IMG/VR virus record: IMGVR_UViG_3300010401_000059
Location: 1-37,591 of that record
Reading direction: 5' to 3' (one strand)
Length of the DNA stretch: 37,591 nt
DNA from: a virus
Position 1 is the first letter of the stretch; each line of letters starts with the position of its first letter. A program made the position numbers and the translations under genes. The notes under the pieces were generated by a model. The model saw nothing but the letters and a program-made list of their open reading frames with translations, searched no databases and was not told where the DNA came from. This document shows positions 2,533 to 37,502 of this stretch, in pieces.

Positions 2533-2639
2533 TGACAATCACAGTAATAGTAGTCTCTTTTATTTTAAGTGGACTACTCATATTAGGTTACAAATTTTTT
2601 AGAACAGTTTACTGGATTTGGAAAATGGGTAAATATTAA
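2532..2639 (+). CDS. Tiny single-pass membrane protein (35 aa)
   Basis: A 35-residue protein with a hydrophobic helix over residues 3-22 (VIVVSFILSGLLILGY) and a short basic/aromatic tail. Its start shares one base with the upstream stop. Its end overlaps the end of the convergent tail-fibre gene by 4 bases. A role in lysis or the envelope is possible but not shown. Confidence 0.55.
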   Translation: MTITVIVVSFILSGLLILGYKFFRTVYWIWKMGKY

Positions 2640-5170
2640 CGAGCACGTCTCAAATAAATTCCACCATACATCGTTGTTGTTCCCGCAGTGTAATCAGCTC
2701 TAGCCACTAAATAAATGGTTGTTGTTGTAGAAAGACTTAATCTTTTATAAGGTGCTTGAATACCAATAGATGACATTCCAGAAGCGGCACTAATAAACAT
2801 TGAATTATATAAGGATGCGTCTGGCAATGTACCGGCTGTTGCTGTGCTTATATAAGCAATCACTAATGTAAATCCAACGGAATTTTGACTAAACCCAATG
2901 TTAGCCCAACAATCCCAGTCACCCGCCGGAACACTAATACTGGTCAAATTTTGTGTCGTTCCAGAAGTTGTAAAAGTAACAGGTGATGCAGCGGTAACAA
3001 CACTTGAAAGAACCTGTCCACAATTACCCGATGCGGCATCGTCATTTGTAGCCGTACCTGCGATATTACCTAACTGACCACCTGAAACTGCGGTGCCAGT
3101 CGTTGCATAATAAGCAAGCTGTCCAGCCGTGCCCGAATTTACTGTGCCTGTTCCCGTGACATTTTGCCAAGTAGGAAGTGTTGCCGCGCCATTAGAAGTT
3201 AAAACTTGGCCTGAAGCACCGACACCTGAAACATTCTGGAAAGCACCGGTTGCAGTCGTACCTGCGCATATCACTGAGTAAGCTGTGAAGGTAGTATTCC
3301 CTGTTCCTCCATTAGCGACGGCAATTGTTGTGCCATTCCAAATGCCACTTGTAATTGTGCCAAGCGTTGTAATATTTCCCTGTACGGCTGCTGGTAGTGT
3401 AGAACTAATGGAAGGTACACCACCTGCGCTTGTAATGAGTACGCCATTATTACCCGTCGTAATTTCACCAACTACATTCGTTGCTGATGAGAATAAAATT
3501 TGATTTGCAGTCGTCGTTGCAGGCCAGGTTGCAGTTGACCAAGCAGGCGCTCCACTTGCACCCGATTGAAGCATTTGGCGTGCAGTTGCCGTACCTGCAA
3601 GGATCGCACCAGCCGTTGCGGTGCTATAGAAAATGCCACCATTACTCGCCGTCAAATTTGCATTAGTGCCGCCACGCCCTAAACTTAACTCACCAGTCCA
3701 ACCCAAAGTAAGCGATGCTGCATTCACAAGTGCAGTTGTAGGTGAGCCACCTAGTGTTAACGTGACATTCGTATCATCCGTTTTAGTTAAAGCGGCACCC
3801 GTTGGTATTTGTGCTGTTGTTGCCAATGTACCTGACGTTGGGAAAGTTACTGACGTGATACCTGTAAAAGTAAACGTCGCATCAAATGCGCCTACTGTTG
3901 TAAGTGCGCCCGCAGTTGTTAAAGCACCACCCAAACTAAGAGCAAATGCTCCCCACGAAGGAGCTGACGAGGCGCCTGATAATAATGGAAGATTAGCGGT
4001 TGCGGTTCCTGCTAAAATTGCACCTGCGGTCGCTGTACTGTAAAAAATACCGCCATTGCTAGCTGTTAAATTCGCATTGGTTCCACCTCGCGCTAGGCTT
4101 AATTGCCCTGCCCATCCAAGAGTCAATGATGTTGCGCGCAATAATGCTGTTGTAGGGCTTCCACCTAATGTCAATGTGACATTGGTATCATCAGTTTTAG
4201 TTAATGCAGCGCCAGTAATATCACCACCGTCAATAGTTGCCCAAGCGGGGGCAGCCGAAACAGCGCCCGTGCCAGTTTGGGAAAGATATTGCTTCACAGC
4301 CGTAGTATTGCCAGCCAATTTAGATAGAGTATTGGCAGCCGATGAATAAAGAATATCACCAAGCGTATACGTAGTTTGATTTGTACCACCTAAAATTTCA
4401 GTGACCGGTACCGTTAATGCAACTGATCCCGTAGTCGTAATGGGGTTTGGCGTCAATGTGATTCCAGTACCCGCACTGATCGATGTGACTGTGCCGCCCG
4501 TACCCGTTGCAGAAATAGTGATACTTCCCGCCGCACTAACAATGCTCACGCCGCTTCCTGCGGTGAGAGTAGCTAAAGCCGGTGCCGAGCCAGTTGCTCC
4601 AATAATTAACTGACCATCCGTTAATGCGCCTAAAGTGCCGTATGTATCAGGTGCGGTGGTGATTAAAAATTGGTTAGCAATCGTCGTGAGTCCATCGATT
4701 GAAGTAAGAGGCGCACTAATAGACAATACGCCAGTTACCGTAGTATTTTTGACAATCCCTGTCGTCAAACTCCCTAAATATTGGGCATTTTGCAACGATC
4801 CATTGCTTGTTTGAGCAATGAAGGTTGCATTTGCCAAATCCTGTACAAATTTGCTTGTTACATTCGATTGATCTTGAAGGCCAACTAACGATGCACCTTC
4901 ACCGGCTGCATGTGATGCTAAAAGGGTAAGTACATTGGTATCGGCTAATTGCACCCATGCACTAGCCATGGAATCCCACCACTCCCATTGTTGTAAGCTT
5001 GTATTAAGCCCAAGCAAACCATTGAAAGGGGATGCGGGTCGCGTACCCGTAGTCCATATAAAAATACGTTGCTCGCGAGTATTTACGCCACTCGATAATC
5101 CAACCGTTTCCGTGGTTGAATCATTAATGTTAGCGACATCAAATTCACTAAATTTTACTGTATTAACCAT
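2636..5170 (-). CDS. Tail fibre / receptor-binding protein (844 aa)
   Basis: A very long protein rich in T, G, A, S and N, typical of trimeric phage fibres. An N-terminal segment (residues 1-75, including RPASPFNGLLGLNT and a Trp-rich WEWWDS turn) resembles fibre anchor regions. The shaft contains two almost identical modules of about 73 residues and many GGTN/LTLGG repeats. The last ~100 residues (SVPAGDWDCWANIGF to GGIYLRRAR) look like a C-terminal beta-sandwich receptor-binding head. The start ATG at 5170 is itself part of an RNA hairpin. Last gene of the long leftward late operon. Confidence 0.85.
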   Translation of the reverse strand: MVNTVKFSEFDVANINDSTTETVGLSSGVNTREQRIFIWTTGTRPASPFNGLLGLNTSLQQWEWWDSMASAWVQLADTNVLTLLASHAAGEGASLVGLQDQSNVTSKFVQDLANATFIAQTSNGSLQNAQYLGSLTTGIVKNTTVTGVLSISAPLTSIDGLTTIANQFLITTAPDTYGTLGALTDGQLIIGATGSAPALATLTAGSGVSIVSAAGSITISATGTGGTVTSISAGTGITLTPNPITTTGSVALTVPVTEILGGTNQTTYTLGDILYSSAANTLSKLAGNTTAVKQYLSQTGTGAVSAAPAWATIDGGDITGAALTKTDDTNVTLTLGGSPTTALLRATSLTLGWAGQLSLARGGTNANLTASNGGIFYSTATAGAILAGTATANLPLLSGASSAPSWGAFALSLGGALTTAGALTTVGAFDATFTFTGITSVTFPTSGTLATTAQIPTGAALTKTDDTNVTLTLGGSPTTALVNAASLTLGWTGELSLGRGGTNANLTASNGGIFYSTATAGAILAGTATARQMLQSGASGAPAWSTATWPATTTANQILFSSATNVVGEITTGNNGVLITSAGGVPSISSTLPAAVQGNITTLGTITSGIWNGTTIAVANGGTGNTTFTAYSVICAGTTATGAFQNVSGVGASGQVLTSNGAATLPTWQNVTGTGTVNSGTAGQLAYYATTGTAVSGGQLGNIAGTATNDDAASGNCGQVLSSVVTAASPVTFTTSGTTQNLTSISVPAGDWDCWANIGFSQNSVGFTLVIAYISTATAGTLPDASLYNSMFISAASGMSSIGIQAPYKRLSLSTTTTIYLVARADYTAGTTTMYGGIYLRRAR
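3581..3800 (-). repeat. Fibre shaft repeat, copy 2
   Basis: About 220 bp encoding TKTDDTNVTLTLGG through NLTASNGGIF to AGTATA. It pairs with 3995-4214, 414 bp away. Long blocks are identical in protein, but the DNA differs by many synonymous changes. Confidence 0.8.
3995..4214 (-). repeat. Fibre shaft repeat, copy 1
   Basis: First copy (in translation order) of the shaft module repeated at 3581-3800. Differences in protein cluster around the ALLRATSLTLGWAGQLSLA segment. Confidence 0.8.
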
Positions 5171-5187
5171 GTACTAATCCGTGTACA
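5170..5187 (-). promoter_or_regulatory. CsrA/RsmA-like hairpin over the fibre gene start
   Basis: On the minus strand TGTAC and GTACA form a perfect 5-bp stem around loop ACGGATTA. The GGA in the loop sits 7 bases before ATG, where the Shine-Dalgarno site should be, and the A of ATG closes the stem. The same loop recurs at 26537-26553 and 37461-37478 with different paired stems. Confidence 0.6.
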
Positions 5188-5556: not shown

Positions 5557-7656
5557 CTATAAACCTAATCGAGCATCGGCTGTGTAATGAAAACTTAAAA
5601 AACCTTCTGGTAGTGCAGCTACGGCTAACACCGCCGTTAAAGGTGAAATGGTATTTGCAATATAGGCAACTGATTTAGAATCAAGCCAACTTTCTGTCCA
5701 AAGTGCCGTGACAGTTCCATCAGCCGGTGGATTGCCCCCCCCATTATTTGCAATGATGCCACTTACTGTATCAGCGCTACCTATTAATGAATATAAACGA
5801 ACAGTCGGTGCGGCACGCTTTATTGTCGAAAATGCAAAACCAAAACCTCTGGCAATTAAATTAATTGGATTACTACCGTCAGCTAATTGCTCTGCAAAAC
5901 GAGCGCCTACTGAAGTGGCTGCGCCAGCTAAGGTGTCAATTTCATAACTTTTCTCAAAATAATATTGACATTGACGCAACACTTCATCGAATGTCTGAGA
6001 TTGCGTAGCAATAGCAAAGTCATTTCTAACTAAAGAGATATCCCTAAAAAATAAAATATCCGCAGTACCAGTAGAATCCATATTTGCAACCGTATAAACC
6101 ATGATACCAAGGGTCATATTAGCATTTGATGAACCAGGAAGGGTTATACCATTAAATGAAAACTGTCCTCCCGCGCCAGGTTGAATAACTAAAACTGGAT
6201 CGTTAGGAGGAATTATTGCAGTGTATCCTGCTGCAAAAACGGGATCGCCTAATTCTGTCCAAGAGGCGATCGGATCAGTTTGACTAACTGTGCCTGGTAA
6301 ACCTGCTTTATAAAAAAGACGCATTTTTACTTTAAATGTAGTGTTGTGTTGTGTATTAGTAAACATATCTACTAAAGCAGATACCACTTCACCCCAATAC
6401 GGCCTAACTGTTGCAGGGTCAATGTATTGAACAATTCCGAATTGATTATGCACCGTCTGTGGCACAACTTGAAAAGCATAATTGTCACCATTGAATGTCG
6501 CTCTTCCAACAGACACATTATTTCCTGTTGCACTTGCCACATAAGCTTGTTGAATAACAATAGTTTGATCGGCGGTATATTGATTAGCCGCAACATTTGT
6601 GTTTGAAGTTGTTCTAAATTGCCAAGGATTTAAACCAAAATTCCAGCCCACTAAAAAACTATTTTTAGATTCTCTAATGAGTGAGTTCGCATAAATATGA
6701 AAAAGATGATCTGTTTCACGTTCATTACTTTGTTGTTGATATAAAGGAATGTCTGTCGCCGGATCAAAATCGCTTGGCAACGGATCGCCTTGACCAATAA
6801 CTTGAACATTGGAAAGGTCAACAATGCCAGTAGGAGGCAACGTAATCAACATGTCTGTATATGCAGTATCATTAAATGTTGTATTAGTCGAAGCCAAAAC
6901 ATCGACCGCGCCCTTTAATATTTGATAGTCACCCGTTGTTAAAGTTCCTGATGCAACGACTTGAGATGTTCCAGGGGTAGAAGGTGAATATACCATTGTG
7001 ATCGCTTGAGGGCTTGTTTGTGCGCGCCCTGTTAATTGCATCGTAATAGCACCATTTGCCCATATAGAACCATTTTCAGCAAATCGTTGACGCAATGTTG
7101 CCGTTGTCCAACCATTATTATTAACTCTCAATGAAAATGGAGGACTATTCACAATATTTTGACTACCTGATAAAATATTTTGTGAAAGAGTTGTTGTACC
7201 ACTTCCTGTTAAAATCAAATCCCAACCTGGAGCAATATTATACGTACCAGATGCCGTAATAGTTAAAGGCGATATAAAATTAATAAAAGTAAATTGAGGA
7301 TTAGTTATCTGATTATCATTAGCTAGAATCGATAATTCATTATTGGTGCTACTTCCTTCGCCTGGCACGAAATTATTAATTTCCCAAATAAGTGCATCCG
7401 TTTGCGAGTTGCCATGACGTATTTCAATTCGATAGACGAGTGCAGGATCAAAATAGAGATTATCTGGTAATGTTCCGGCAGGACTAAATTGAACAATATC
7501 ACCAGTCCAAACTGTCATACCTTGCGGATCACGATAAACATTTTGTGGCAAATAAGGTAATGTGTTCGTCAAAAAGAACGCATAATATTCATCATTTAAT
7601 GGTTCACCAACATGATCCACCATAAACCAAATCGGATTCGCTGCACGTACAAACAT
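5557..7656 (-). CDS. Large virion structural protein (699 aa)
   Basis: A 699-residue protein with a clear N-terminal segment (NPIWFMVDHVGEPLNDEYY, then LPYLPQNVYRDPQG and YRIEIRHGNSQTDALIWEINNF) found in structural proteins of several podovirus-like phages. The middle is beta-rich with carbohydrate-binding-module-like stretches (GWDLILTGSGTTTLSQN). The C-terminal part reads QTFDEVLRQCQYYFEKSYEID, followed by a terminal beta region. Likely part of the tail or fibre network. GGA site before ATG. Exact role unknown. Confidence 0.7.
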   Translation of the reverse strand: MFVRAANPIWFMVDHVGEPLNDEYYAFFLTNTLPYLPQNVYRDPQGMTVWTGDIVQFSPAGTLPDNLYFDPALVYRIEIRHGNSQTDALIWEINNFVPGEGSSTNNELSILANDNQITNPQFTFINFISPLTITASGTYNIAPGWDLILTGSGTTTLSQNILSGSQNIVNSPPFSLRVNNNGWTTATLRQRFAENGSIWANGAITMQLTGRAQTSPQAITMVYSPSTPGTSQVVASGTLTTGDYQILKGAVDVLASTNTTFNDTAYTDMLITLPPTGIVDLSNVQVIGQGDPLPSDFDPATDIPLYQQQSNERETDHLFHIYANSLIRESKNSFLVGWNFGLNPWQFRTTSNTNVAANQYTADQTIVIQQAYVASATGNNVSVGRATFNGDNYAFQVVPQTVHNQFGIVQYIDPATVRPYWGEVVSALVDMFTNTQHNTTFKVKMRLFYKAGLPGTVSQTDPIASWTELGDPVFAAGYTAIIPPNDPVLVIQPGAGGQFSFNGITLPGSSNANMTLGIMVYTVANMDSTGTADILFFRDISLVRNDFAIATQSQTFDEVLRQCQYYFEKSYEIDTLAGAATSVGARFAEQLADGSNPINLIARGFGFAFSTIKRAAPTVRLYSLIGSADTVSGIIANNGGGNPPADGTVTALWTESWLDSKSVAYIANTISPLTAVLAVAALPEGFLSFHYTADARLGL

Positions 7657-7666
7657 AATTCACTTC

Positions 7667-9787
7667 CTATTGTAGTAAACTTGAAATTCCTTTATATCCT
7701 GCATAACCCACAAGTGCCGTACCTGCAATCGCAAGTTTTCTCTGTAAACGACTCCTGGCTTCTTTTGCTTCTTTTAAATTACCTTCTATTTTTAATTTTT
7801 CCTTCAAAGATATGCCTTTTCTATTTGATATCTCTTTTAAATTATCAATATGCTTATTAGCCTTATCAACCTCTTTTTGAAGAGATTCACGCTCAGTCAT
7901 CATATTCTTTTGTTTTTCTGTTTCTTTTTCAACCTGTACTTGTTTTGTTTTAGCTTCCTTATGGGCAAGTTTGCTTTGTTCCAAATTAGTTTTAGCTTCA
8001 TTAGCTTTATTAACTGCACCTTCTCGTACATTCAATAAATTTTGTAATTGAGGTGATTCATTTAAATATTCTTGCATAAGCTCATCAGGATAATGAAGCT
8101 CACCAGGTTTGGCGGCATAGCGTTGTCCTACTACATTTTTAAGTAACTCAGGATCTTGTTTAACAATCTCACGAACTAATGGCATTCCATCTTCATTAGT
8201 ACGCAGTGCTCGAACCATGTTACTAGGTAGCGCACCTTCTTTAGCAGCTTTCACAAATGAATTATTTCTTAATGGATAAACCTGTTCAGAATATCCCTTG
8301 TTAATACGATCAAATTCAGGCTTGTATTCACCAAGGCCTTCGCTTAAGGTTTTATCAATTTGCATCATCATCTGATCGCCCTGCTTGGCAGCCTTACGCG
8401 CAGCATCTTCTTCTAAGACACTAAACTTATCATTATAAATTTTCTGTTTTAAATTGTAGAGTGCATCTCTAAATGCACGTCTCTTCAATAAAAAATCACC
8501 AGCACTCGTATCTTCAGTCGTAGGTGCAACATCTAGTAATTTTTTATAATAAGGATTTTGTGGCTCTTCTTTGTCCTGCATCTTTTTAACAAAGTCTTCC
8601 ATCTTACCTTTCTTAATAGCATCAAAGGCATCAGCACCATACGTTTGAATTAATTTAGAGGGATCGACATTGGCATAATCCAAATTCTCCATTGCTGACT
8701 TTGGCATTTCAAAATGCGCATCTCTCACTTGTTGCTCAAAATCTTTATACGCATCTGACCAATAATCTTCGACAGACTGAACACGTTTATCAACGCTTGC
8801 TGCCGCACGAACATCATGAGCTGCACCTTCATTAAGGTGCTTACCAATATCTTGATCAATATTAGAAACAAGCTGCTTTGCCTCATTATGCGTATTTTCA
8901 GCTTGATTAAGATGTGTCTCAGCCTCATCAAGATTAACAGGCTCTATCTTAGGCGCATTTTGTAATTGCGTATCTAAGTCATTTAATTTTTCTGTATGCT
9001 GGTTTACTTTACGTTGTAACGTATCAAGGTTTGATGAACCTGATTCAATATTCGCAGCCGATTGTGCTTGCTGCTGTTCATTCTCTATATTAGATAAATT
9101 TTCATTAGCACCTTTTTGGGCTTCTTCAATTCCTGATAAATTTTTCCATTTTTGTACATCAGAGATAGCTTTTCCAACCCCTTTAATGGGAGCCATAGCA
9201 GCCACTTTTGCACCCGCACCAGCCAAACGCGCAATAGGAAAAGTAATAGGAGCATTAGCAACCATTCCTCTCAGAAGTCTATCCGCAGCCGTTTTATTTC
9301 CACCCACAAATTCATCTAGCTTACCTTCAATGTCTGGTACTGATGGAATCATAGATGCTGTCTTTTCTGCACCTTGTGGCGAAACCATATTAAGATGCGC
9401 CATTAACGTAGGGATATCATGAGGTATATTTAATATACTACGACCTAATTCAGCACCACCTGCTAATAAATTTTTACCAGCACGTTTAGGATTAGTTGCA
9501 ATTTGATACGCCGCACCTGGCGCACCTTCTATAGCTGTCTGAGCACCTGATCTTACTAATTGATTAACATCTTGAACCGCAGGAACCATACCACCTGAAA
9601 TCATTTGTCCTATTGATCGATTAACATGATGCTCAGGGTCAAATAAATTTCCACTTAACATTGCTGCAATAAGAGGCAACGCTTGATTATTTTTATTTTG
9701 AGATGTTGGAGTAATATCTTCCCAATCAGATTGCGGCGCAGCCTGATTAGATTTTTCATTGTCTCCTACGACTTCCCAATCGCTCAT
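7667..9787 (-). CDS. Internal virion / DNA-ejection-type protein (706 aa)
   Basis: Starts MSDWEVVGDN and repeats the SDWE motif at about residue 21. A Gly/Ala/Pro region with possible amphipathic helices covers residues 80-215. Very long Gln/Glu/Lys-rich coiled coils span about 220-330 and 560-680. A hydrophobic C-terminal helix (AIAGTALVGYAGYKG) ends the protein. This composition and its place after the gp7-like gene match P22-type ejection proteins, which leave the capsid before the DNA. ATG at 9787 is chosen over an in-frame TTG at 9790; it overlaps the upstream stop (TGATG). Confidence 0.65.
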   Translation of the reverse strand: MSDWEVVGDNEKSNQAAPQSDWEDITPTSQNKNNQALPLIAAMLSGNLFDPEHHVNRSIGQMISGGMVPAVQDVNQLVRSGAQTAIEGAPGAAYQIATNPKRAGKNLLAGGAELGRSILNIPHDIPTLMAHLNMVSPQGAEKTASMIPSVPDIEGKLDEFVGGNKTAADRLLRGMVANAPITFPIARLAGAGAKVAAMAPIKGVGKAISDVQKWKNLSGIEEAQKGANENLSNIENEQQQAQSAANIESGSSNLDTLQRKVNQHTEKLNDLDTQLQNAPKIEPVNLDEAETHLNQAENTHNEAKQLVSNIDQDIGKHLNEGAAHDVRAAASVDKRVQSVEDYWSDAYKDFEQQVRDAHFEMPKSAMENLDYANVDPSKLIQTYGADAFDAIKKGKMEDFVKKMQDKEEPQNPYYKKLLDVAPTTEDTSAGDFLLKRRAFRDALYNLKQKIYNDKFSVLEEDAARKAAKQGDQMMMQIDKTLSEGLGEYKPEFDRINKGYSEQVYPLRNNSFVKAAKEGALPSNMVRALRTNEDGMPLVREIVKQDPELLKNVVGQRYAAKPGELHYPDELMQEYLNESPQLQNLLNVREGAVNKANEAKTNLEQSKLAHKEAKTKQVQVEKETEKQKNMMTERESLQKEVDKANKHIDNLKEISNRKGISLKEKLKIEGNLKEAKEARSRLQRKLAIAGTALVGYAGYKGISSLLQ

Positions 9788-11196
9788 CAAAGCATCCCTT
9801 TCTTTTTAGCATCACCACGGCTGATAGTTTGAACCTCACCCGTTTTTTTGTTTCTAAAAGTCATCATTTTTTTATCGCTAGGATTCAAGTCAGGCATTTT
9901 AATAGGTAAATCTTGGCCTGTTGAATCTTTGTATTCTTGATTTAATCGCTCATATTCATCTCTTAAATGTTGTTTAGTCGCATCAATCATCCCCTGGTTA
10001 ACTTCGGGTTGCTTAAACAATCCAGGTTTAATAGTGCTTGCCCATTTTAATGCTTGAACACCACCACGCTGACTTGCATAACGTCCAATTTCAGCCTGTA
10101 AATTACCAGCGGTCGTTGTAAATTCACCGATTTTTGGATTAGTTGAAAGGTTTAATTTACTCGCTGTACCTTGTCCTATACCGGTCAAATCAGGATTTTC
10201 AGCTAATAAATCATCTAATTGATTAGCTAATGCCGCAGTCGTTGCTAATGAGCGAGCCGCTTTTTTCATTGTGGTTGCATCTTTTGCACCTTCAACACCT
10301 TGAGCTGCTGCAACCTTGGTTTCAACTTCTCTTTTTTGTCTTTCTTCTGGTGTTTCCTGAGCAACCGTTTTCATGCCAGGGACAGCGGATTGTTGCATGG
10401 TCACTTTTCCGCTTGGGTATTGTGTATAAATTTGTCCATTTGCGCCAAAATGCGTAACAGGCTTAGGAATTCCAGGCACAAAACCTGCAACGGCATCTAA
10501 TTTTGATAACGCCGGATTGCCTTGCCTTAATACAATTTCCTGACCAGGCGCGCCCATTTGAGGAGGCGCAGGCTGTTGTGGCGCACCACTCTGTGCTGCA
10601 TTCGGCATTGGGGCTTGCGGATTAGGCGCAGGAGGAGTTGCGCCGCCTGGCATAATAGGCAACGGTGGAGGCGCAGGCATTCCAGGGGAAGCATTGGGAG
10701 GAGCCATCCCATTTTGGGGCTGTTGCATCATGTCATTTAATTGACCCAATCCTGGCACCGCTGGAAAAGACGCATTTTTACTCAACTCACTGGCTTGATT
10801 ATCTTCCTGTGTTGGTTGCTGAGGCGGTTGCGCCATGGCATCAGGACTACCGCCAGGCATAGCACCAGGAACCGGTGAAGGTGTTGGCGTACCACCAAAA
10901 GATGGCATACCGTTCGGATTTGCAGCTGCATCTTTCAAAGCCTGTCTAATTAGGCCATGATACATTTGCTGAATTTCAAAATCGCTTGCTTCTTTATTAT
11001 GCGTATCTTTGTATTGCTGAATTTGATAAGGCAATAATTGTTGCGCGCGCGATTCAGCTTGCTTACTTAAAGCTAATTGTTGACCAAATTGTGCTTGCTG
11101 TGATTTCCGTTTTTGTAAGGTTTCAAAGTAATCCATGACGTCTTTGAAAACCTGATTACCGGAATCCGGTAACGGAATAGGTGCAAACATTGTCAT
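9787..11196 (-). CDS. Pro/Gln/Met-rich internal virion (ejection-type) protein (469 aa)
   Basis: Residues 1-90 are helical and Gln-rich. Residues 95-225 are low-complexity, built from Pro, Gly, Ala, Met and Gln. A helical domain follows (about 285-440: AAAQGVEGAKDATTMKKAAR, then LDDLLAENPDLTG, IGRYASQRGGVQALKW). The C-terminus is short and basic (RNKKTGEVQTISRGDAKKKG). Slot and composition fit a second ejection protein (P22 gp20/gp16 region). GGAG site 9 bases before ATG. Stop overlaps the next start. Exact P22 counterpart cannot be assigned by eye. Confidence 0.65.
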   Translation of the reverse strand: MTMFAPIPLPDSGNQVFKDVMDYFETLQKRKSQQAQFGQQLALSKQAESRAQQLLPYQIQQYKDTHNKEASDFEIQQMYHGLIRQALKDAAANPNGMPSFGGTPTPSPVPGAMPGGSPDAMAQPPQQPTQEDNQASELSKNASFPAVPGLGQLNDMMQQPQNGMAPPNASPGMPAPPPLPIMPGGATPPAPNPQAPMPNAAQSGAPQQPAPPQMGAPGQEIVLRQGNPALSKLDAVAGFVPGIPKPVTHFGANGQIYTQYPSGKVTMQQSAVPGMKTVAQETPEERQKREVETKVAAAQGVEGAKDATTMKKAARSLATTAALANQLDDLLAENPDLTGIGQGTASKLNLSTNPKIGEFTTTAGNLQAEIGRYASQRGGVQALKWASTIKPGLFKQPEVNQGMIDATKQHLRDEYERLNQEYKDSTGQDLPIKMPDLNPSDKKMMTFRNKKTGEVQTISRGDAKKKGML

Positions 11197-11210
11197 AACA
11201 TAAACTCCTT

Positions 11211-11894
11211 TTATGCTGCGGCAGTCGCGGGGTTCTGACCTTGCATATACATTTTAGCTAACATCGCCCCTATATTCATTATCCTATCCCCTGGCGCATT
11301 ATGCACACCATAAGCTGCCTGACCGAGATTTTCACCTACTCCAAGCGCCTCTTTCCCTAGGTTGCCCATGGTGCTAGTCACATTATTACCCATATTGCCT
11401 GCGGTTTGACCGCCAATACCGTATATATTCTGACCAATACCGATACCTGTCATATATTTTTGCATTAAATCGTTCAAAAATTGTTGTCTATCTGAATTCA
11501 TAATGTCCGCAGATGATTGTTGTATATTTTTTAACGCGGAAGAACTTCCCATTAATCCCATGCTAGATGCAGCATCCAATCCCGCATTCTTAGCATTAGA
11601 CATAGATGTTTGAGCAAAGGGTGACATCGAATAACTCTGCATCCATTTAGACAATAAATCAGACGGATTTAAAAGCTGATTCTCAGCATTATTTAAAATC
11701 GGAAGTTGCGAAGTGCCAGCCGTTTGAAATGGTTGCTGAATACCTAATGATTGATTCAATCCGTTCTGTTGAAATTGTTGCGCTTGCTGCCACGCTTTTT
11801 GCATTTCATCGCCAGCCGCTTTATAACCCGCTTCAGGATGCAAAAAGCTATCAATAGCGTTGCCAACCACCGGAATTCCACTAATAAATGACAT
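11211..11894 (-). CDS. P22 gp7-like DNA transfer / ejection protein (227 aa)
   Basis: Starts MSFISGIPVVGNAIDSFLHP and continues with Gln/Asn-rich helices, a Ser/Met/Gly-rich centre (NAKNAGLDAASSMGLMGSSS) and a Gly/Asn-rich end. These features are typical of gp7-type podovirus DNA transfer proteins. The start at 11894 is supported by a GGAGG site about 8 bases upstream; an upstream in-frame ATG would place that site inside the gene. It is the first of three ejection-type genes, as in P22 (7, 20, 16). Confidence 0.65.
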   Translation of the reverse strand: MSFISGIPVVGNAIDSFLHPEAGYKAAGDEMQKAWQQAQQFQQNGLNQSLGIQQPFQTAGTSQLPILNNAENQLLNPSDLLSKWMQSYSMSPFAQTSMSNAKNAGLDAASSMGLMGSSSALKNIQQSSADIMNSDRQQFLNDLMQKYMTGIGIGQNIYGIGGQTAGNMGNNVTSTMGNLGKEALGVGENLGQAAYGVHNAPGDRIMNIGAMLAKMYMQGQNPATAAA

Positions 11895-14959: not shown

Positions 14960-16207
14960 TTACGAGATAACAATAACCGCAAACTCTGGGTTAATTGCGA
15001 CCCCTCCTATGACGTCCAGTCGGTCTAACTGAATGTAGTTACGGATATCAGCACCTAACGAATAAGTCATTGCTAACTTATAGAGGTCACTGTATGTCGT
15101 TACTGCATCCACACCACCCTTCAGTTCCTTGATAGGCGGTGCTGCAAACACAATCGCTTGATTGTGAAATGCAATACTTACGTTATGGTCATCAACTAAC
15201 AGGATTTGTGCGCCATCTGGAATTGCAGCAGAGATATTTTGTCTAGCGCCACTGATTACAATGGTTGGGCTGACAGGAATCGTTGCTGTATTACCACCGG
15301 CTGAAATCACATCCGCTGTTACAACGAATTGCGCCGTTGTAGACAGTGCTTCATAGGTCAATGGGTTGACCATGAATACGCCTGAAGCAGAATCGATTGT
15401 GATTAAATCGCCTTTGTTAAACACCTGTGTTCCTGGTGCTTGGCCTAAGCCAGTCACAGAAATGGTGTTACCACCCGTAATTGCGCCGCCGGTAACTGTT
15501 CCACCCAATTTGAATCCACTTGGAGGAGAGCCACCTGCTTGACCGGCACCTGCAATTTGACGTCTCAAGAAATTTGTCTTGAAGAAATCAAATCCTGACA
15601 AGTGACCAATGAAGCCGTCGAGCAATGCACCACGGTTAACCGTCATGTTGAACACGTTATGAAGGTCATTAGATAAGCCCGCTGAAACTCGTGGAGAGTT
15701 TGCAAAATAGCGGTTTCCGTCCTCTGGAATACCTAACTCTGTCATATACGCATCAGCTAAAAGCACAGCGTTAAAATCGATTGGTACGCCGGCTGTTCCA
15801 GTAAATTGATAAACCTGTAACTGGAAGTTTTCGGAGGCAATGAATTTTTCAACGTCGTTAGCTAATGTCTTAGCACGCGGATTTAACATCATATCCAGGT
15901 ACGGTTGATCGCGCGCTCTATCGAAAGTTAACTCCATGCCATTAAATTCAACCATAGTATGGAATTGTGTATCAATTGTGAGCGGTCGGATGACCTGTAC
16001 ACGGGCTTCGGATGTTGCGGTTGCGCCGCGTCCACCAAGATAGCGTTCTTCTAAACGGTAGTTGATAGTTTGACCAGTTGCGTATTTTAAGCCTTTGAAG
16101 TCACCTTCAAGGTTACGGTTAGCAACTTTTGCGAAATTTAAATAGTTTACGAAACGAACAAAGACTTCATCTAATACATATTGTGTAGTTTGAAATACAT
16201 TCGGCAT
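14960..16207 (-). CDS. Major capsid (coat) protein, P22 gp5-like (415 aa)
   Basis: 415 residues, close to the 430 of P22 coat, starting MPNVFQTTQYVLDEVFVRF. It follows the gp5 pattern: INYRLEERYLGGRG early (N-arm/E-loop region), VEFNGMELTFDRARDQ, a long spine-helix region (RAKTLANDVEKFI), NRYFANSPRVSAGL, then a beta insertion and VAFHNQAIVFA-type P-domain strands near the C-terminus. HK97 fold by family. The start at 16207 is chosen because GAGGGA precedes it; a longer ORF start adds 19 unlikely residues. Unusually, scaffold and portal are 7 kb away. Confidence 0.88.
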   Translation of the reverse strand: MPNVFQTTQYVLDEVFVRFVNYLNFAKVANRNLEGDFKGLKYATGQTINYRLEERYLGGRGATATSEARVQVIRPLTIDTQFHTMVEFNGMELTFDRARDQPYLDMMLNPRAKTLANDVEKFIASENFQLQVYQFTGTAGVPIDFNAVLLADAYMTELGIPEDGNRYFANSPRVSAGLSNDLHNVFNMTVNRGALLDGFIGHLSGFDFFKTNFLRRQIAGAGQAGGSPPSGFKLGGTVTGGAITGGNTISVTGLGQAPGTQVFNKGDLITIDSASGVFMVNPLTYEALSTTAQFVVTADVISAGGNTATIPVSPTIVISGARQNISAAIPDGAQILLVDDHNVSIAFHNQAIVFAAPPIKELKGGVDAVTTYSDLYKLAMTYSLGADIRNYIQLDRLDVIGGVAINPEFAVIVIS

Positions 16208-16380
16208 GACGGTTCCCTCGCCAATGATTAATAAAAGCCCATCGTGGGCAATCCATTTTTTCATTGTCGAGCGGACGACAGTTTTACGCGCTGTATTTGG
16301 GCTTGACGGAAACCCTAAAACTACACATCAATTGCAAACATTATGATCTTTTTTTAATAATAGATCAATAGTTTAAATTT

Positions 16381-23499: not shown

Positions 23500-24420
23500 T
23501 TACCGGTACACATTTTTAGTTTTAGCATGAGAGTTTATTAATTGATCAATATTCCGCTCAGGCATCTTGTCACTCGCATCACCGCTTATTTTACGCGATG
23601 GCTTCGGCGTTGTGGTAACTAATTTCGCTTTCTTCATCCGCTCCTCAAGTCTACCAATGGATGCAACCTGCGCGTAATGATCCGGTAACTGTGCGATGCG
23701 CTCCAATTCCTTGGGGTGCTGCTTGCACGCTGCATAAAGGAATGCTGCTGGATCATCCATGCTACGCGTTGCCATCATCATGGCATTTGATATAGGTTTG
23801 CCCTTTACCACCGTATCAAAATCCTTGTAACGGTTCATGCCAGATGCAAACTTCTCTTCAAACTTGGCTTGGGTTTCAATTTCTTTTTCTTGCCATTCTT
23901 TGTTTTTTTGCTTCTCAGCAACCTTGCTGATAGTGCTCTCAACAAACTTTTCAAGCTGTACTTCCCATGTTTCCTCACTATTGGGATCAGCTTTAAAGTC
24001 TTTAGCTGCATCATTGAGCTGTTGTTGCTGTTGAGGCGTTTGCTCTGTATGGCGATCACGGAGCCTTTTGCGAATCATGTCCTGCACTTCTTGCTCAGTA
24101 TAGAGTTTCGCTTTAGGAATTTTATTGCCATAATCATCCACTTCACCGCTATCATCATCTGAGGAGTCATCACTTGCATTATCTTCAAGCTCTGTTTCTG
24201 GCTCTTCTGTCGACGCTGCCTCTTGCTCTTCTTTGTCTGTGGGAGCTTCGGCTACCTCATCGGGTTGTATTTCTTCTTCAGGTTGCGGTGGTACTTCTTT
24301 TTTTTCTTTGGTTTGTGGTTTAGGTGTTTCAGGTACGGGCTTACCTAATTTTTGGGCTTCATCTTTAATAATAAGATCATCGGCGCTTCTGATTACGCTT
24401 TCTTTTTTGCTCTCGGTCAT
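23500..24420 (-). CDS. Scaffold-type protein (306 aa)
   Basis: Highly charged, helical and partly disordered. The N-terminal half is acidic (EEEIQPDEVAEAPTDKEEQE and NASDDSSDDDSGEVDD), the middle is Gln/Lys helical, and the C-terminus is basic (KAKLVTTTPKPSRKISG, ending HAKTKNVYR). This fits P22 gp8, whose basic C-terminal helices bind coat and guide procapsid assembly. It follows the portal gene directly (ATGA overlap), the gp1-gp8 order of P22. Similar in length to P22 gp8 (303 residues). The coat gene is not next, because 25 small genes intervene. Confidence 0.8.
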   Translation of the reverse strand: MTESKKESVIRSADDLIIKDEAQKLGKPVPETPKPQTKEKKEVPPQPEEEIQPDEVAEAPTDKEEQEAASTEEPETELEDNASDDSSDDDSGEVDDYGNKIPKAKLYTEQEVQDMIRKRLRDRHTEQTPQQQQQLNDAAKDFKADPNSEETWEVQLEKFVESTISKVAEKQKNKEWQEKEIETQAKFEEKFASGMNRYKDFDTVVKGKPISNAMMMATRSMDDPAAFLYAACKQHPKELERIAQLPDHYAQVASIGRLEERMKKAKLVTTTPKPSRKISGDASDKMPERNIDQLINSHAKTKNVYR

Positions 24421-26534
24421 ACATTGCTTTCCTTGCGTTGGGTTGAGTGGGTTAGTAAATGGGTAATGTTTTGCGCATGATTAATTTGCGCATCCATGTT
24501 CGTTCGGTGAATCTCAGCTTGAAAACGCATTTCCTGATCACGCATTTGTGCCATGATTTGTAAACGCTGATGTTCTAGCTTTTGCATCTCAAGGCTCATA
24601 TCCTGGCCTGTTTGAATGCCTTTCAATTGCACTTCTTTTTCTTTCGATGCAATTTCCTGCATCTTCAATTGACCATCTTGTTGCATTTGCTGTTGCTTCA
24701 GTTGCAATTCTTGCAGCTTGATCATAATCATGGGGTCTGGTTGGTCTGGTTTTGGTGGTAACGGTTTGCCTGTCTTTCCAGCTTCAATAATTTCAGGCGG
24801 TACCAGTGTACGCAAGCGATTCTTAAACTCGATGTTATTCGCCATCGGCAGATTATCGACGTACAAATCAGCCACCATACGAAATATAGTAGGGTCAGCT
24901 TGGAGCACCGCTTGAATCGATTCCAAGTTTTCCTGCTTTTGCCCTTCAAAGCTTGCACCCGCGAGCAATCGAATGACATACTTTCCATCCTTCATATTGT
25001 TTTTAATGTTTGAGCCATACATATCAATTTGTTTATTGAGCGTCACTTTCGTCATCCCTGTATCTGGCATGTTAAGTTGTATATCACGCTCCGAGTCATA
25101 CACTTGCGGGATCATCTCATTAATGATTGTTCCACCACATGCAATTGAACGATTGAGAGAATCAAAGGGCACATAAGTATTATAATTGCCACGCTTAGTG
25201 CGAGCATCAATTGCAACACCTGACGTTTCATTGCCTTGTTCCCCCACTTGAGTTCCATACATGCCGGTGCACGATTCAATGTCGGCTAAGGCACGCTGGT
25301 ATTGAGTGATAAGAGATTGTGATAATTCAGGCGGTCGCAATTGCTCTGGTTTGTTGCCGTTGGGTGATTCATCATAAACTAAACCACCTTGAGCGGTAGC
25401 AGGATCACGCCATATGTTTTGGGTGTCGGGTGACTTCACATTGGCTTTGCTTACCAAAAATTGATCGTAACGTGACACACGCATAAGGTATGCACTTTGG
25501 GTCGCAAGATAATTTATGTAACGCTGCGCGTCTCTCGCATCTTTAATAAATGGCCTACAAATTTGTTTGCCTGATTTATCATAATAGGAATTCTGGTCAA
25601 CGAAAACGATTGGGGTTTGCTGTGAGGGGAAATCATCTTCATCTAGTATAAAATCACCGGCGCACGCTCTATGTTTAATCGTGTAGCGTGGTACGTCACG
25701 CTCATTAGCAATCGTCACATAGTCAAGCATTGCGCCAGAGTTATCGATTAGCATTTCCTTGTCATCGACCTTCACTTTATCAAGCGACTTCATTTCCTTG
25801 GCGTCAATGATGCGACCATTTGAGAGTTGATAAATCTTTTCTGTTTTGTACTCGCGTTTATAATCTTCAATGACGGTGATTTCTTTGTCTGTTGAAAATA
25901 TCCAGCCTGTTGCCGATCCTTCATCATAGTTGGCCTCAGCACCAATTTGCTTTTCAATCTCGTCACCATAGATCGATGCAAACATCTTGCGTGACATGCG
26001 AGTGCGGATGCCGGAGCGCATACCATCCGTTTTGCAAGGCGATTGCGCGGACACATCCCAATAGCAGTATGTGGGGTCTTTGGTTTCTTTGTAGACAATT
26101 ATTTGATTAAAGGAATCTTCATTCTCATATTCCGTGTCAATGCGGTAAGCGCCAAAGCCACCGATCGATGCTTGCTGGAAAGCAGTTTGATAGACGCGCT
26201 TTGCATCGGAATTAAGTGATATATCTTTGATCAAAGCCTCGCGTGTTGCTGCCGTTTCGACCGATACATCATCACTTGGCACCACTTGAAGGTTTGGAGT
26301 ATTCTGTCGCTGCTCACCAAGTAAATGGTTAATGAGAGGCGCAAGCTTGTTCATTGATAGCGGGATTTTCTTATAATCGATAAATAGCTTTGATTCGTCT
26401 TCTGTCCACTGGCTTCCCATGACAAAAGAAACAAATTCGTGATACTGGTCTTTATTGAACCGCCAGTCATCATCCCACTTTTTAATATAATCGCGTAATT
26501 CTTTTGTGAACTCTAAGTCCTTTTTTGGTGCCAT
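24417..26534 (-). CDS. Portal protein, P22 gp1-like (705 aa)
   Basis: About 705 residues, near the 725 of P22 gp1. N-terminal helices (DLEFTKELRDYIKKWDDDWR) and WTEDESK, then NKLAPLINHLLGEQRQNTP, the P22-type portal core (YCYWDVSAQSPCKTDGMRSG, RCHA-type SNRDVPRYTIKHRACAG-like region), QNSYYDKSGKQICRPFIKDA and GNETSGVAIDARTKRG. A very long Gln/Met-rich helix at residues 590-690 matches the C-terminal barrel that lines the DNA channel. ATG 26534 is used; a TTG nine bases upstream also opens the frame. A CsrA-like hairpin covers the presumed Shine-Dalgarno site. Confidence 0.9.
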   Translation of the reverse strand: MAPKKDLEFTKELRDYIKKWDDDWRFNKDQYHEFVSFVMGSQWTEDESKLFIDYKKIPLSMNKLAPLINHLLGEQRQNTPNLQVVPSDDVSVETAATREALIKDISLNSDAKRVYQTAFQQASIGGFGAYRIDTEYENEDSFNQIIVYKETKDPTYCYWDVSAQSPCKTDGMRSGIRTRMSRKMFASIYGDEIEKQIGAEANYDEGSATGWIFSTDKEITVIEDYKREYKTEKIYQLSNGRIIDAKEMKSLDKVKVDDKEMLIDNSGAMLDYVTIANERDVPRYTIKHRACAGDFILDEDDFPSQQTPIVFVDQNSYYDKSGKQICRPFIKDARDAQRYINYLATQSAYLMRVSRYDQFLVSKANVKSPDTQNIWRDPATAQGGLVYDESPNGNKPEQLRPPELSQSLITQYQRALADIESCTGMYGTQVGEQGNETSGVAIDARTKRGNYNTYVPFDSLNRSIACGGTIINEMIPQVYDSERDIQLNMPDTGMTKVTLNKQIDMYGSNIKNNMKDGKYVIRLLAGASFEGQKQENLESIQAVLQADPTIFRMVADLYVDNLPMANNIEFKNRLRTLVPPEIIEAGKTGKPLPPKPDQPDPMIMIKLQELQLKQQQMQQDGQLKMQEIASKEKEVQLKGIQTGQDMSLEMQKLEHQRLQIMAQMRDQEMRFQAEIHRTNMDAQINHAQNITHLLTHSTQRKESNV

Positions 26535-26553: not shown

Positions 26554-26610
26554 TTAAGAATATTATTGTTAGTGTAACATTCAAACCCATATTACAATAG
26601 ACGCGATTTA

Positions 26611-26664
26611 TGGCCAATTAAAGTTGAGACGTCCAGCTATTAGCTAATAACTGAAAATTGGCCA
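26611..26664. promoter_or_regulatory. Inverted repeat around a palindrome in a divergent intergenic region
   Basis: Perfect 9-bp arms TGGCCAATT (26611-26619) and AATTGGCCA (26656-26664). Between them is a perfect 12-bp palindrome TATTAGCTAATA (26638-26649). It lies between the portal gene (leftward) and a small-gene/RNA operon (rightward), so it may be an operator or a leader hairpin of the latter. Confidence 0.5.
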
Positions 26665-27550: not shown

Positions 27551-29063
27551 ACATGCCTGGCCGTGGTGTCGGAATAGTTGTCACGGGTGTTAATCCAGTT
27601 GGTTCATAGAAACCACTATAGAATGTGAGCGCCAAAGCATCTGCCGTGTCCGGTGATGGCATGCCACGTGCTTTTAAATCATCCTTTGACTCAATGAGAA
27701 GTCTACCGGCTGAATCATACTTGTAGCCTAGATTGCAAAGATCGCCATGCAAATCATCACGGTCTGGAAGTTGCACCGCCATTTCTTGTGTCAACCAATC
27801 TCGCATATCTGACCAGAGCTCAGCTCGCAGATTTCTAAACTTGTCTTTATTGTTTGCTGATCGAGCGACGTTGATTCCTTCCACAAAATGAAAATTATGC
27901 TCGCGAAGACGATCCACAACGCCAGCACCAACACCAATACAATCGATATAAACGCGATCTGGATTTTCTCTCTCAATAACATGTTTTACCATCCCTGCTA
28001 TTTCCATCGTGTTCATGTTGCGGAATGTCTCGAGGTTATACGCAACACGACCCTTCCGCCTTATTATTGCGGTTCTATCATTATCACCCAATGCAACGTC
28101 AACGCCAATCACTAAACGTGCATCTGATTCAATTTTGTTTTTGCGAGCGCGCGCCACATGCTTGGCATTAATGAAGACGTTAGCAATAGGATTTAAGAAT
28201 GCTTCAGTTGCGGAGAATGGGAATTCTTGTTTGAATGATTCTAATCCCGCATCAAAATCGTTTGAAAGCTCGGCTATCTTTAATCGACGCCATGCAAGGT
28301 GACGATTTGATAAACCATCCTCGCCATAGATATGAATTAAAAACTCTTCCTCTTCTGTTGGTCTAAATCCATCTGAAGTAATTGCATACTCATTCTGCCA
28401 ATACCATGGAACGAATATCGGAATGTAATCACTTGCGCCACTCTCAGCTGCTTTCCACATATTATGAAAGTAATTACCAATACCGTTTGCGGTTGATTCA
28501 AGTATTATTTCTGTGCCCGCTTCATTGCTCACTGCTTGCAATACGCCCTTTGCATGGTCTTCAGCGTTAGGCCAGAATGCGACTTCTGAACCATGAAAGA
28601 GTTGGATTGTTTGCGAACGCCCCGCGCCTTTATTGCCAGCGGTTCCTACTGCATAACCTGAATCATACTTTTTAAAATAGAGCTCTTTGCTAGATGACTT
28701 ATCAGCGGTACACGCCAAGCCTTGAGGGAGTTTGTCATAAAATCGTTGCGTCATCTCAAATAAGTTTTTAGTAGCTTCCGCCTCATGCGTCAATATATAT
28801 GCTTTGGTGCCTAAGCGTGTGATGACCTTATGAAAGTATCGACCTTGAATCTTGGTGCTCATGCCTTGCTGTCGGCCTTTTAATATCAACGCACGCACTT
28901 TGCCCGTATCAATTAATTGCTGTTCAAGTTTGGAGTGTGCATAGAGTTGAGCGCGATTCAAAGCAAACGGTCGCAGCTGTCCAGACTTACCACGGATAAT
29001 AAGAAACCTTTCTGCAAAGCGGGGAAAGTCATTAATGATGGCTTGGAATTCCGCTTTATTCAT
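27543..29063 (-). CDS. Terminase large subunit (506 aa)
   Basis: N-terminal ATPase: Walker A-like GRQQGMST near residues 63-70 (LKGRQQGMST), and the ILESTANG motif (Walker B plus catalytic Glu) near 190. C-terminal RNase H-like nuclease: VGVDVALGDNDRTA (first Asp), VYIDCIGVGAGVVD (second acid) and a final SPDTADALALTF (third Asp). This is the motor and nuclease for DNA packaging. It overlaps the small-subunit gene by 8 bases. Resembles terminases of P22-like headful phages, consistent with the circular map. Confidence 0.93.
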   Translation of the reverse strand: MNKAEFQAIINDFPRFAERFLIIRGKSGQLRPFALNRAQLYAHSKLEQQLIDTGKVRALILKGRQQGMSTKIQGRYFHKVITRLGTKAYILTHEAEATKNLFEMTQRFYDKLPQGLACTADKSSSKELYFKKYDSGYAVGTAGNKGAGRSQTIQLFHGSEVAFWPNAEDHAKGVLQAVSNEAGTEIILESTANGIGNYFHNMWKAAESGASDYIPIFVPWYWQNEYAITSDGFRPTEEEEFLIHIYGEDGLSNRHLAWRRLKIAELSNDFDAGLESFKQEFPFSATEAFLNPIANVFINAKHVARARKNKIESDARLVIGVDVALGDNDRTAIIRRKGRVAYNLETFRNMNTMEIAGMVKHVIERENPDRVYIDCIGVGAGVVDRLREHNFHFVEGINVARSANNKDKFRNLRAELWSDMRDWLTQEMAVQLPDRDDLHGDLCNLGYKYDSAGRLLIESKDDLKARGMPSPDTADALALTFYSGFYEPTGLTPVTTIPTPRPGMFI

Positions 29064-29941: not shown

Positions 29942-30276
29942 TGAATATCAGAGAATACAGTTACGAAGACATCGACCAAATGCAACAAATTAGCAAAACC
30001 ATTCGCAAACAAATTGGTGTCGCAAACTTAATGGCATGTGGCGCTCGAGAATTTAAATTGCTAGGCTTCGATTCTCCCAAAAAAGGCGTTCAATTCCGCG
30101 TGAATCACAGCGCAAGGCGTCAATATGTAAAAGTTGTTTTAGAGCCCAATGATACCTATACCGTCATTACTTACCGCTTAAAAAGAGTAACAAACGAGCA
30201 CATTGACATTAATGACGTCTATGATATCTATTGCGAACAATTAGGTGAAACCGTTTATAGGATGGTAAACAAATGA
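29941..30276 (+). CDS. Conserved-looking phage hypothetical protein (111 aa)
   Basis: Reads MNIREYSYEDIDQMQQISKT, with the middle VANLMACGAREF, FDSPKKGVQFRVNHSARRQY, then VKVVLEPNDTYTV and a helical end. The GAR-F...LGF, GV.FRVN..ARR..VKV.LEPNDTY.V pattern recurs in phage hypotheticals. Alpha/beta fold expected. TAATG overlap with the gene above, ATGA with that below. Confidence 0.65.
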   Translation: MNIREYSYEDIDQMQQISKTIRKQIGVANLMACGAREFKLLGFDSPKKGVQFRVNHSARRQYVKVVLEPNDTYTVITYRLKRVTNEHIDINDVYDIYCEQLGETVYRMVNK

Positions 30277-32403: not shown

Positions 32404-32710
32404 ATATGACTCCAATTTTTTTAGGTTGGTCTAAATTGTCGCACAATTTATCCTCCACGATAAATTTAGCTCCATCTTGATCATTTAAAAATATATCATC
32501 CATATCCTGTTTAGAAAATTTACTTAATTCGTTCATGACACCCGCAGCATCCAAGCCAGGGAAAAAAGGTGTCGCAGCCCGCGTCAATTTTGTAAGCATC
32601 GCCGTTGTTTTTCTTGAAAGCGTTGGCGACCAGGGCACCTCTTTAAAATAAAACTCTTTAAAACTTCTAACTACCTTTTCCGCGTCCATTATGATTGGAT
32701 AAATTGCCAT
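32390..32710 (-). CDS. Hypothetical protein (106 aa)
   Basis: Reads MAIYPIIMDAEKVVRSFKEF then WSPTLSRKTTAMLTKLTR, FPGLDAAGVMNELSKFSKQD and a basic end with VIYGNE. GGAG lies 9 bases before the start. It overlaps the end of the initiator gene by 44 bases, in another frame. Phage replication loci often carry a helper after the initiator gene, but this protein has no recognised motif. Helical overall. Confidence 0.55.
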   Translation of the reverse strand: MAIYPIIMDAEKVVRSFKEFYFKEVPWSPTLSRKTTAMLTKLTRAATPFFPGLDAAGVMNELSKFSKQDMDDIFLNDQDGAKFIVEDKLCDNLDQPKKIGVIYGNE

Positions 32711-33587
32711 CGTTTAACTCTCCATGTTGTAAACGTAATTCATGCCGTCGTTTAATCTCTCGGAAAGAAAGATGCTCTGACGGCTCCTGCACAACCGGTT
32801 CTTCCTTGGGTTGATTAGTTTTCATCTCTCGAATTAATTTAAAAGTTTCATAATTGGGGTGAGTGGGATCATCGAAAAATTTTTCAGTCGCTTTAGTTTG
32901 TCCATTCCCGTTCCCGTTCCCATTTTGTTTTGTTACAAAACCCATTGGCCTTTCATTGATCAAAAAATTCTCAAACTCTGCATTCCAATCCGCGCTGGTT
33001 CCCTGTTTAGATTTCTGTAGGTTTTTAAATTTCGATAAAAGTTCCTCTTTGCTTTTTCCAGATTTAGAGGCCGTCTCAATCCAAAGGTTGTTTATTTTTT
33101 CACTAGGTAAAAAAGAATCAGTGAGTGCGGCGCGTTTTTTGCGCGCCCTCTCTCTATTATTTCTTTTTAATTCTTCTTCTGTATTGATTGGGTGATCTAC
33201 AGATGCTCGGTGGGGTGATCTACAGATGCTCGGTGGGGTGATCTGTAGTTCACCGGTGAACTGTGGATCACCGGTGATCTGTAGATGCTCGGTTGGTTGT
33301 AAAAAATCCAAATAATAACGACTTGATCTACCGTTATCTCGATCAATAGCAATTAACTTAAGAGATTCCAAATGAAGCAAACTGGTCTTTACGTAACGTG
33401 AACTAACTTTTAATTCTTTGGCTAAAGTAGCGATAGAAGGATAAATACCCTTGATGCCTTTGTGACGAGCGAGAGCGATAAGTAATAAACGATGAAATGG
33501 CAAAAGAGTGTAATCATCGGATTGCCAACCGAATATGAAGTTTAGAACCTGAAAAACTATGTGAATGTCTTTGTTGCTCTCAGCCAT
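32667..33587 (-). CDS. Replication initiator, lambda O / DnaT-like (306 aa)
   Basis: N-terminal winged helix-turn-helix (residues 25-95: LLPFHRLLLIALARHKGIKG, SIATLAKELKVSSRYVKTSL, LIAIDRDNGRSSRYYLDF) like the origin-binding domain of O-type initiators. The linker (100-135) is encoded by the repeats at 33191-33296. The second half contains FLPSEKINNLWIE... and TSADWNAEFENFLINERP, resembling the DnaT/primosome-like segment of phage initiators. Low-complexity GNGNGNG near residue 222. It probably loads the host DnaB helicase; the window has no helicase or polymerase. AGGA site before ATG. Confidence 0.75.
   Translation of the reverse strand: MAESNKDIHIVFQVLNFIFGWQSDDYTLLPFHRLLLIALARHKGIKGIYPSIATLAKELKVSSRYVKTSLLHLESLKLIAIDRDNGRSSRYYLDFLQPTEHLQITGDPQFTGELQITPPSICRSPHRASVDHPINTEEELKRNNRERARKKRAALTDSFLPSEKINNLWIETASKSGKSKEELLSKFKNLQKSKQGTSADWNAEFENFLINERPMGFVTKQNGNGNGNGQTKATEKFFDDPTHPNYETFKLIREMKTNQPKEEPVVQEPSEHLSFREIKRRHELRLQHGELNDGNLSNHNGRGKGS
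33191..33296. repeat. Iteron cluster and palindromes: probable replication origin
   Basis: Inside the initiator gene. Two identical 23-bp direct repeats (33191-33213 and 33214-33236) carry GATCTACAGATGCTCGGT. A third, altered unit sits at 33237-33259 and a fourth at 33273-33296 has GATCTGTAGATGCTCGGT. Two perfect 14-bp palindromes with a shared CACCGGTG core (33248-33261 and 33266-33279) lie between them. An AT-rich stretch (33140-33190) adjoins. This mirrors the lambda ori inside gene O. Confidence 0.75.
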
Positions 33588-37112: not shown

Positions 37113-37416
37113 AACATTTTTAGCGGTTCTTTCTCTGGCTAATCCCTTAAAAAAGGATGCAGAACGGCAAGCCTTATGCCAGTAAGGGCTTGATGGAAGC
37201 GGTACCTAAATACAGGTAGTAGAACGCCGGAACTCATGCAACCGTAAACTTGGCTTTGCCAGAGGCGTGACAGATTGGAGAGACAGTCAATTAATTACAT
37301 GCTTAGTGACCTCATCCTTCCCTTTATGGCATGTAATTATGCAGTCCGACCGTGAATGACTGCATACTAACTCTCGGTGACAGGGGTGATAGAATCCCGC
37401 TTTCTTATTATCTCAG
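37113..37416. other. Structured non-coding stretch between operons
   Basis: About 300 bases with no gene found. It holds, in order: AGAAC/GTTCT (37111-37130); a 9-bp hairpin with one bulge, CAAGCC-TTA and TAA-g-GGCTTG (37168-37192); GCG-gTACCT with AGGTA-CGC (37199-37227); TGGC-TTT-GCCA (37251-37261); an 11-bp perfect stem TAATTACATGC/GCATGTAATTA (37292-37339); an 8-bp perfect stem TATGCAGT/ACTGCATA (37338-37366); and GGGG/TCCC (37383-37398). It may be a structured RNA, 5' leader or recombination site. Confidence 0.55.
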
Positions 37417-37444
37417 TTGTTACCCTCTACAAATATGATACAAT
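37417..37444 (+). promoter_or_regulatory. Promoter of the fibre-like structural gene
   Basis: -35 TTGTTA (37417-37422), 16-base spacer, -10 TACAAT (37439-37444). It lies about 60 bases before the ATG at 37503. Confidence 0.6.
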
Positions 37445-37460
37445 CTTGTCTATATACACT

Positions 37461-37478
37461 TTTACACGGATTTGTAAA
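37461..37478 (+). promoter_or_regulatory. CsrA/RsmA-like hairpin in the fibre-like gene leader
   Basis: TTTAC and GTAAA pair perfectly around loop ACGGATTT. A second GGA is in the Shine-Dalgarno site AAGGAG (37489-37494), giving a two-site arrangement as in known CsrA targets. Confidence 0.55.
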
Positions 37479-37502
37479 TTTACTTCTCAAGGAGAGAGAT
37501 CA

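Follow-up and report, generated by a model that had tools for sequence, protein, structure and literature searches.

Genome and gene content

The DNA analysed here, referred to as the window, comprises positions 1-37,591 of the IMG/VR record IMGVR_UViG_3300010401_000059 (37,591 bases, 39.3% G+C). As judged from its predicted genes, it is the genome of a P22-like podovirus, with virion and lysis genes annotated as portal, major head protein, head closure, scaffold, ejection protein and endolysin, further genes for terminase and RecE/RecT and, as in its relatives, many genes without known function. At the DNA level, no relatives of the first 25 kb were present in the phage collection. The tail-fibre gene (2636-5170, minus strand; PHROG 11393, tail fibre protein) encodes 844 aa with the conserved N-terminus MVNTVKFSEF, and its start at 5170 is backed by the N-termini of homologues (MVNTxKFS). 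Within this gene, two 221-nt direct repeats (3582-4216; 73% identical, 414 nt apart) constitute an internal duplication. Also on the minus strand are the portal protein gene (24417-26534; Pfam P22_portal, 340.8 bits) and the major capsid protein gene (14960-16207; PHROG 283, major head protein). A gene starting with MAITSLKRDF lies at 37503-37591 on the plus strand and runs on across the record ends into 2-1210; since its homologues can be aligned to the two parts alike, the record probably represents a complete genome in circularly permuted form. At 33190-33294, within a gene (32667-33587) resembling O-like replication initiators, GGGTGATCTACAGATGCTCGGTG and variants of it form tandem repeats of 22-23 nt, which are probably iterons of a replication origin like those in lambda O.

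Hairpins at gene starts in the window

Three hairpins with a common loop core have been found in the window. At the tail-fibre start, TGTAC-ACGGATTA-GTACA (5187-5170, minus strand) is supported by sequence, folding and comparison of homologous leaders, and carries in its loop a GGA (5180-5178) that serves as Shine-Dalgarno (SD) sequence. As an earlier note on this DNA had described, 7 nt separate this GGA from the ATG, the A of which (5170) is the last stem base; TGG follows directly 3' of the hairpin. In the portal leader, CATAC-ACGGATT-GTATG (26553-26537, minus strand) ends 2 nt upstream of the ATG at 26534, while TTTAC-ACGGATTT-GTAAA (37461-37478, plus strand) lies in the leader of the 37503 gene, 24 bases before its ATG. 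The same note had proposed a constant ACGGATT loop on differing, perfectly paired stems: all three paired hairpins are indeed present, but loop lengths are 7 or 8 nt and only the outer two stem pairs differ, the inner three (TAC/GTA) being the same throughout. The pattern TACACGGATT(N)GTA occurs three times in the window against 0.01 expected and in none of 100 shuffles; ACGGATT by itself is common enough, with 8 occurrences against 4.75 expected. Single-sequence folding energies are unremarkable against shuffles (z of -1.3 at the tail-fibre site and about 0 to +1 at the other two), and the evidence for the hairpins is therefore the comparison between sequences.

Further hairpins are located at other starts. 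The 37503 leader has a second one on its SD, TTCTC-[AAGGA]-GAGAG (37484-37498, plus strand), so that each of its hairpins carries one of two GGA motifs 23 nt apart, similar to the dual sites of glgC, one upstream and one at the SD, with their two-site bridging arrangement. Its orthologues also have SD hairpins, such as TTTGTC-AGGGA-GACAAG and CTCAT-GGA-GTGAG. Sequence and folding place another, AGCATAAA-[AGGAG]-TTTATGTT (11197-11217, minus strand), at the start of a 469-aa gene (9787-11196). A probable weaker hairpin with one G-U pair, TGGCG-[AGGGAAC]-CGTCA (16207-16223, minus strand), is indicated at the major-capsid start by homologues, which show TTGTTC-AGGGA-GAACAA, GTCGA-AGGAA-TCGAC and others; the window's own fold favours a different pairing there. 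Hairpins thus overlap the SD or start codon of the tail-fibre, portal, 469-aa and 37503 genes, in the last case through the second hairpin. Two possible hairpins were left out, one at 30253-30270 (loop TAGGATGG) before the gene at 30273 for having no A at position -2, and the other, upstream of the gene at 29481 (29509-29487), for having its GGA about 15 nt from the start.

An Rfam scan of the window gave no match at gathering score. Between a gene ending at 37112 and the 37503 leader, about 350 nt (37113-37460) have no evident gene and no Rfam match, and their predicted folding is slightly better than that of shuffled sequences (z -1.65), making this a possible non-coding RNA. About 40 nt upstream of the portal hairpin, a promoter-like sequence is conserved (window about 26560-26620; relatives L010, L014, L015 and L023), with an extended -10 of the type TGnTAnAnT and, in several, a shared TTATTAACnTTTTTTG(TGGATAA) block, which suggests that the portal gene begins its own transcript.

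Variation of stems in homologous leaders

Leaders of homologous genes were compared with a null obtained by permuting the arms separately within each gene's set of leaders, those of the tail-fibre gene being aligned through the conserved MVNTxKFS N-terminus. Pairing around the GGA was retained in 19 of 22 non-redundant tail-fibre leaders (null 6.2; 14 different inner arms), 31 of 46 portal leaders (null 10.4; 21 different inner arms) and 42 of 74 major capsid leaders (null 14.5; 24 different inner arms). As 15 of the 46 portal and 32 of the 74 capsid leaders fell under the score threshold, the hairpin is absent from some homologues. Tail-fibre arm pairs among the relatives include TTGTACA/TGTGCAA, TGTACA/TGTGCA, TTGTTCA/TGAACGA, GTAC/GTAC, GCAC/GTGC, TGCAC/GTGCA, ATCAC/GTGAT, CTAAC/GTTAG, CCTAAA/TTTAGG, TTAGTTAA/TTAACTAA and GTTAAC/GTTAAC, along with others. 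In the closest relatives, the portal leader sequences are CATACACGGATGTATG, CATACATGGATGTATG, CATACATGGAATGTATG, AATACATGGAATGTATT, AATACAGGATGTATT and TTCATACGGATGTGAA.

These comparisons bear out the earlier suggestion of a selected RNA structure, which relatives lacking the pairing would have spoken against; the stems vary freely in sequence, G-U pairs included, around a GGA held in the loop. What does not hold is ACGGATT as the constant loop, since only A-N-GGA is constant among relatives; its first position is A in 81 of the 92 leaders of the portal, capsid and tail-fibre genes that pair. The conserved element, as read from these alignments, is A-N-GGA, with GGA acting as SD.

Enrichment and pairing register across the family

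The family set, made up of soil phages, consisted of 95 records (1.37 Mb) with 1,213 non-redundant leaders having a GGA SD; gene calls were crude (longest ORFs, with starts weighted by SD) and hairpins played no part in the choice of starts. In these leaders, stems of at least five pairs around the SD GGA numbered 147, against 45.7 expected (sd 6.6) by arm permutation. The excess resides in five tight geometries with 3-6-nt loops around the GGA (120 against 12.4), the remaining ones being at chance (63 against 59.5). The window alone offers a weak test, with 2 hairpins in the tight geometries against 0.4 expected. Among triplets only GGA is enriched, with 119 hairpins centred on it against 16.2 expected and a median ratio of 0.71 for the others.

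A reading of the sites as DNA elements, either operators or promoter parts, draws on the fact that they are short inverted repeats close to gene starts. It leaves unaccounted for the fixed strand, with GGA as SD, the fixed distance to the start codon, the arbitrary arm sequence and the enrichment limited to GGA loops, and the G-U pairs in the stems (e.g., TGTACA/TGTGCA) are to be expected of an RNA and not of an operator in DNA. This reading was rejected on the combined grounds of strand, register, loop specificity and G-U pairing, and is considered extremely improbable.

A model-free matrix of Watson-Crick pairing has shown an excess at -3:+2 (Z 5.5), -4:+3 (6.8), -5:+4 (3.9) and -6:+5 (3.6), absent at -2:+1 (0.7), as well as a further register in which the loop is longer by one base (-2:+2, 3.7; -3:+3, 4.7; -4:+4, 4.4). 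The register is that of an A-N-G-G-A-N hexaloop, or of a heptaloop like the window's portal site. The ANGGAN hexaloop closed at -3:+2 is thus present at the family level, the window's three fixed-loop sites having 7-8 nt, and in many hairpins of the family additional pairing could shrink the loop to 3-5 nt. Position -2 is A in all 25 hairpins of the (2,1) and (3,2) geometries where it is unpaired, compared with 52% in leaders without a hairpin, while the base following GGA in hairpin leaders is variable (T 0.42, G 0.32, A 0.21). Hairpins occur on 14-19% of uncoupled genes versus 2.5% of translationally coupled ones.

Resemblance to CsrA/Rsm sites

The geometry of these hairpins is, in sequence terms, the recognition geometry of CsrA and RsmE, and CsrA sites at start codons are of a known kind. 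The earlier reading of a selected structure at the tail-fibre start was right yet incomplete, as the predicted elements extend to the portal, the capsid and many other genes and share this geometry. The tail-fibre leader of one relative (G007) contains UUCACGGAUGAA, which we take to be the hcnA core. In the RsmE/RsmA site at the Pseudomonas hcnA SD (PDB 2JPP), as in the phage sites, a short hairpin immediately upstream of the start codon holds the SD GGA in its loop, with an A two bases before GGA and the stem closing at -3:+2; hcnA is a host metabolic gene, whereas the phage sites belong to virion genes, have loops of 7-8 nt in the window and are candidate binding sites known by sequence.

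The SELEX consensus of CsrA is RUACARGGAUGU, with GGA within a hairpin loop, preferably of six bases, and an upstream AC pairing with a downstream GU, while the RsmE structure is an ANGGAN hexaloop (PMC7652899). Portal leaders read AUACA(C/U)GGAUGUAU, and two of them, AUACACGGAUGUAU and AUACAUGGAUGUAU, match the SELEX rules nearly letter by letter. The likeness to the E. coli ligands thus comprises GGA in the loop, the AC/GU pairing and these near-consensus portal leaders; the phage portal and tail-fibre sites differ in having mostly C or U rather than R before GGA, and in stems of 5-8 bp where the ligands are mostly shorter-stemmed. In L. pneumophila, CsrA recognises A(N)GGA loops that overlap the ribosome-binding site of fleQ (PMC5338858), and weak RsmN/RsmA binding has been reported for a 4-nt loop (PMC3791407).

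Sites of the T4 RegB endoribonuclease, GGA(G/U), likewise lie in phage translation starts. RegB cleavage depends on GGAG/U with an A-rich 3' side, and structure inhibits it (PMC3014915); a cleavage site of this type was rejected for the hairpins here, where GGA is followed by different bases and selection maintains structure.

Host evidence and control sets

Scans of bacterial genomes revealed no relative by portal and two relatives by capsid. One of these, whose major capsid protein is 74% identical, is found as a contig in BBSC-SA01, a single-cell genome which comes from farm soil, has been classed in Legionellales and has a G+C content of 39.4% (PMC7453286), close to that of the window. This genome, which holds a related phage and not the window phage, has a gene for a canonical CsrA, in which L4 and R44 are present. 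An alphaproteobacterial MAG with another relative had no CsrA above the cut-off. As judged from this one single-cell genome holding a relative, the phage lineage probably infects Legionellales.

In the unrelated phages Lambda, P22, VvAW1 and BA3, none of 133 leaders had a hairpin in the enriched geometries (0.7 expected), and the probable host's own genes, with 3 of 152 leaders (1.8 expected), were not enriched. Among the sets compared, the hairpins are confined to the phage family, and since the four phages and the host genes lack the enrichment, it is explained neither by SD hairpins in general nor by a host-wide habit.

These controls bear on a role that needs no protein, where the stem would present the SD in an open loop and block misfolding with neighbouring sequence, making translation robust. 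An SD in a loop would be accessible, the stems are short and variable, and the preference for genes free of translational coupling would fit; the fixed loop register, the invariant A at -2 where unpaired and the lack of such hairpins both in unrelated phages and in host genes with a comparable G+C content are left unexplained, so that this role is improbable.

The main alternative to a host protein is a phage-encoded one, having converged with CsrA on ANGGA-loop specificity and acting as an early/late translational switch. T4 and related phages supply translational regulators of their own (PMC3014915), the many phage genes of no known function leave room for one here, and the lack of enrichment in host genes would agree with it. 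Set against this, the window and its relatives contain no csrA gene by a search that recovered the one of VvAW1 as a positive control, and no dedicated candidate gene was identified; such a binder is regarded as unlikely. Vibrio phage VvAW1 (L050), a distant relative by portal, encodes its CsrA-like protein at 28277-28489 (E 2e-18) and has no such SD hairpins.

Proposed regulation by host CsrA

As the phages have no recognisable csrA, the putative binder is most likely the host's own. The reading that we favour, and consider probable, is that a host CsrA-type protein binds the SD-loop hairpins and holds down translation of late virion genes. Counting against it are the 7-8-nt loops of the window's three fixed-loop sites, which depart from the optimal hexaloop, the smaller loops to which many family hairpins could close, the homologues without the hairpin, a host link through one single-cell genome with a relative, and the weak signal in the window taken by itself. 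The tail-fibre hairpin would then be a CsrA/RsmA-type RNA element carrying the SD in its loop, and a CsrA-family protein bound to the A-N-GGA loop would keep the 30S subunit off the mRNA. Virion genes with such elements, among them portal, major capsid and tail fibre and, in relatives, the gene whose 700-aa product corresponds to 5557-7656, would be held down until free CsrA drops, either because host sRNAs act as sponges or because transcripts of the phage itself titrate it. The predicted effect, and with it the timing of late gene expression, depends on the sign of regulation, as CsrA may instead activate translation or stabilise the mRNA.

Titration could also be the main purpose, with late phage mRNAs sponging host CsrA to switch host physiology and gene control being secondary. 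Each genome has several sites, on late mRNAs that are presumably abundant, and CsrB-type RNAs sponge CsrA through GGA loops (PMC7652899). The phage sites are located at starts, usually one per leader, rather than clustered in a non-coding RNA, which makes this very unlikely.

Regarding CsrA control of the phage genes themselves, a broader proposal on which we are evenly divided is that a P22-like lineage, probably on Legionellales, has put its virion programme under host CsrA through hairpins at the capsid, portal and tail-fibre starts, with assembly gated by the host's growth-phase switch and no regulator of the phage's own. Genes for csrA on phages were already known (PMC7366521), and the phages and plasmids carrying them (VvAW1 gp26, Pseudomonas RsmM, RsmQ) engage the Csr/Rsm system too (PMC7366521, PMC9928087); the family described here differs in having putative targets only and no csrA gene. 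In the open literature searched, no phage lineage was found described as having CsrA-type sites on its virion genes in a systematic way. If the proposal is true, a global regulator of the host times phage assembly, and phage production is tied to the replicative/transmissive switch of Legionella-like bacteria. The family also constitutes a natural collection of more than 100 stem variants on one recognition loop, with which CsrA specificity could be tested.
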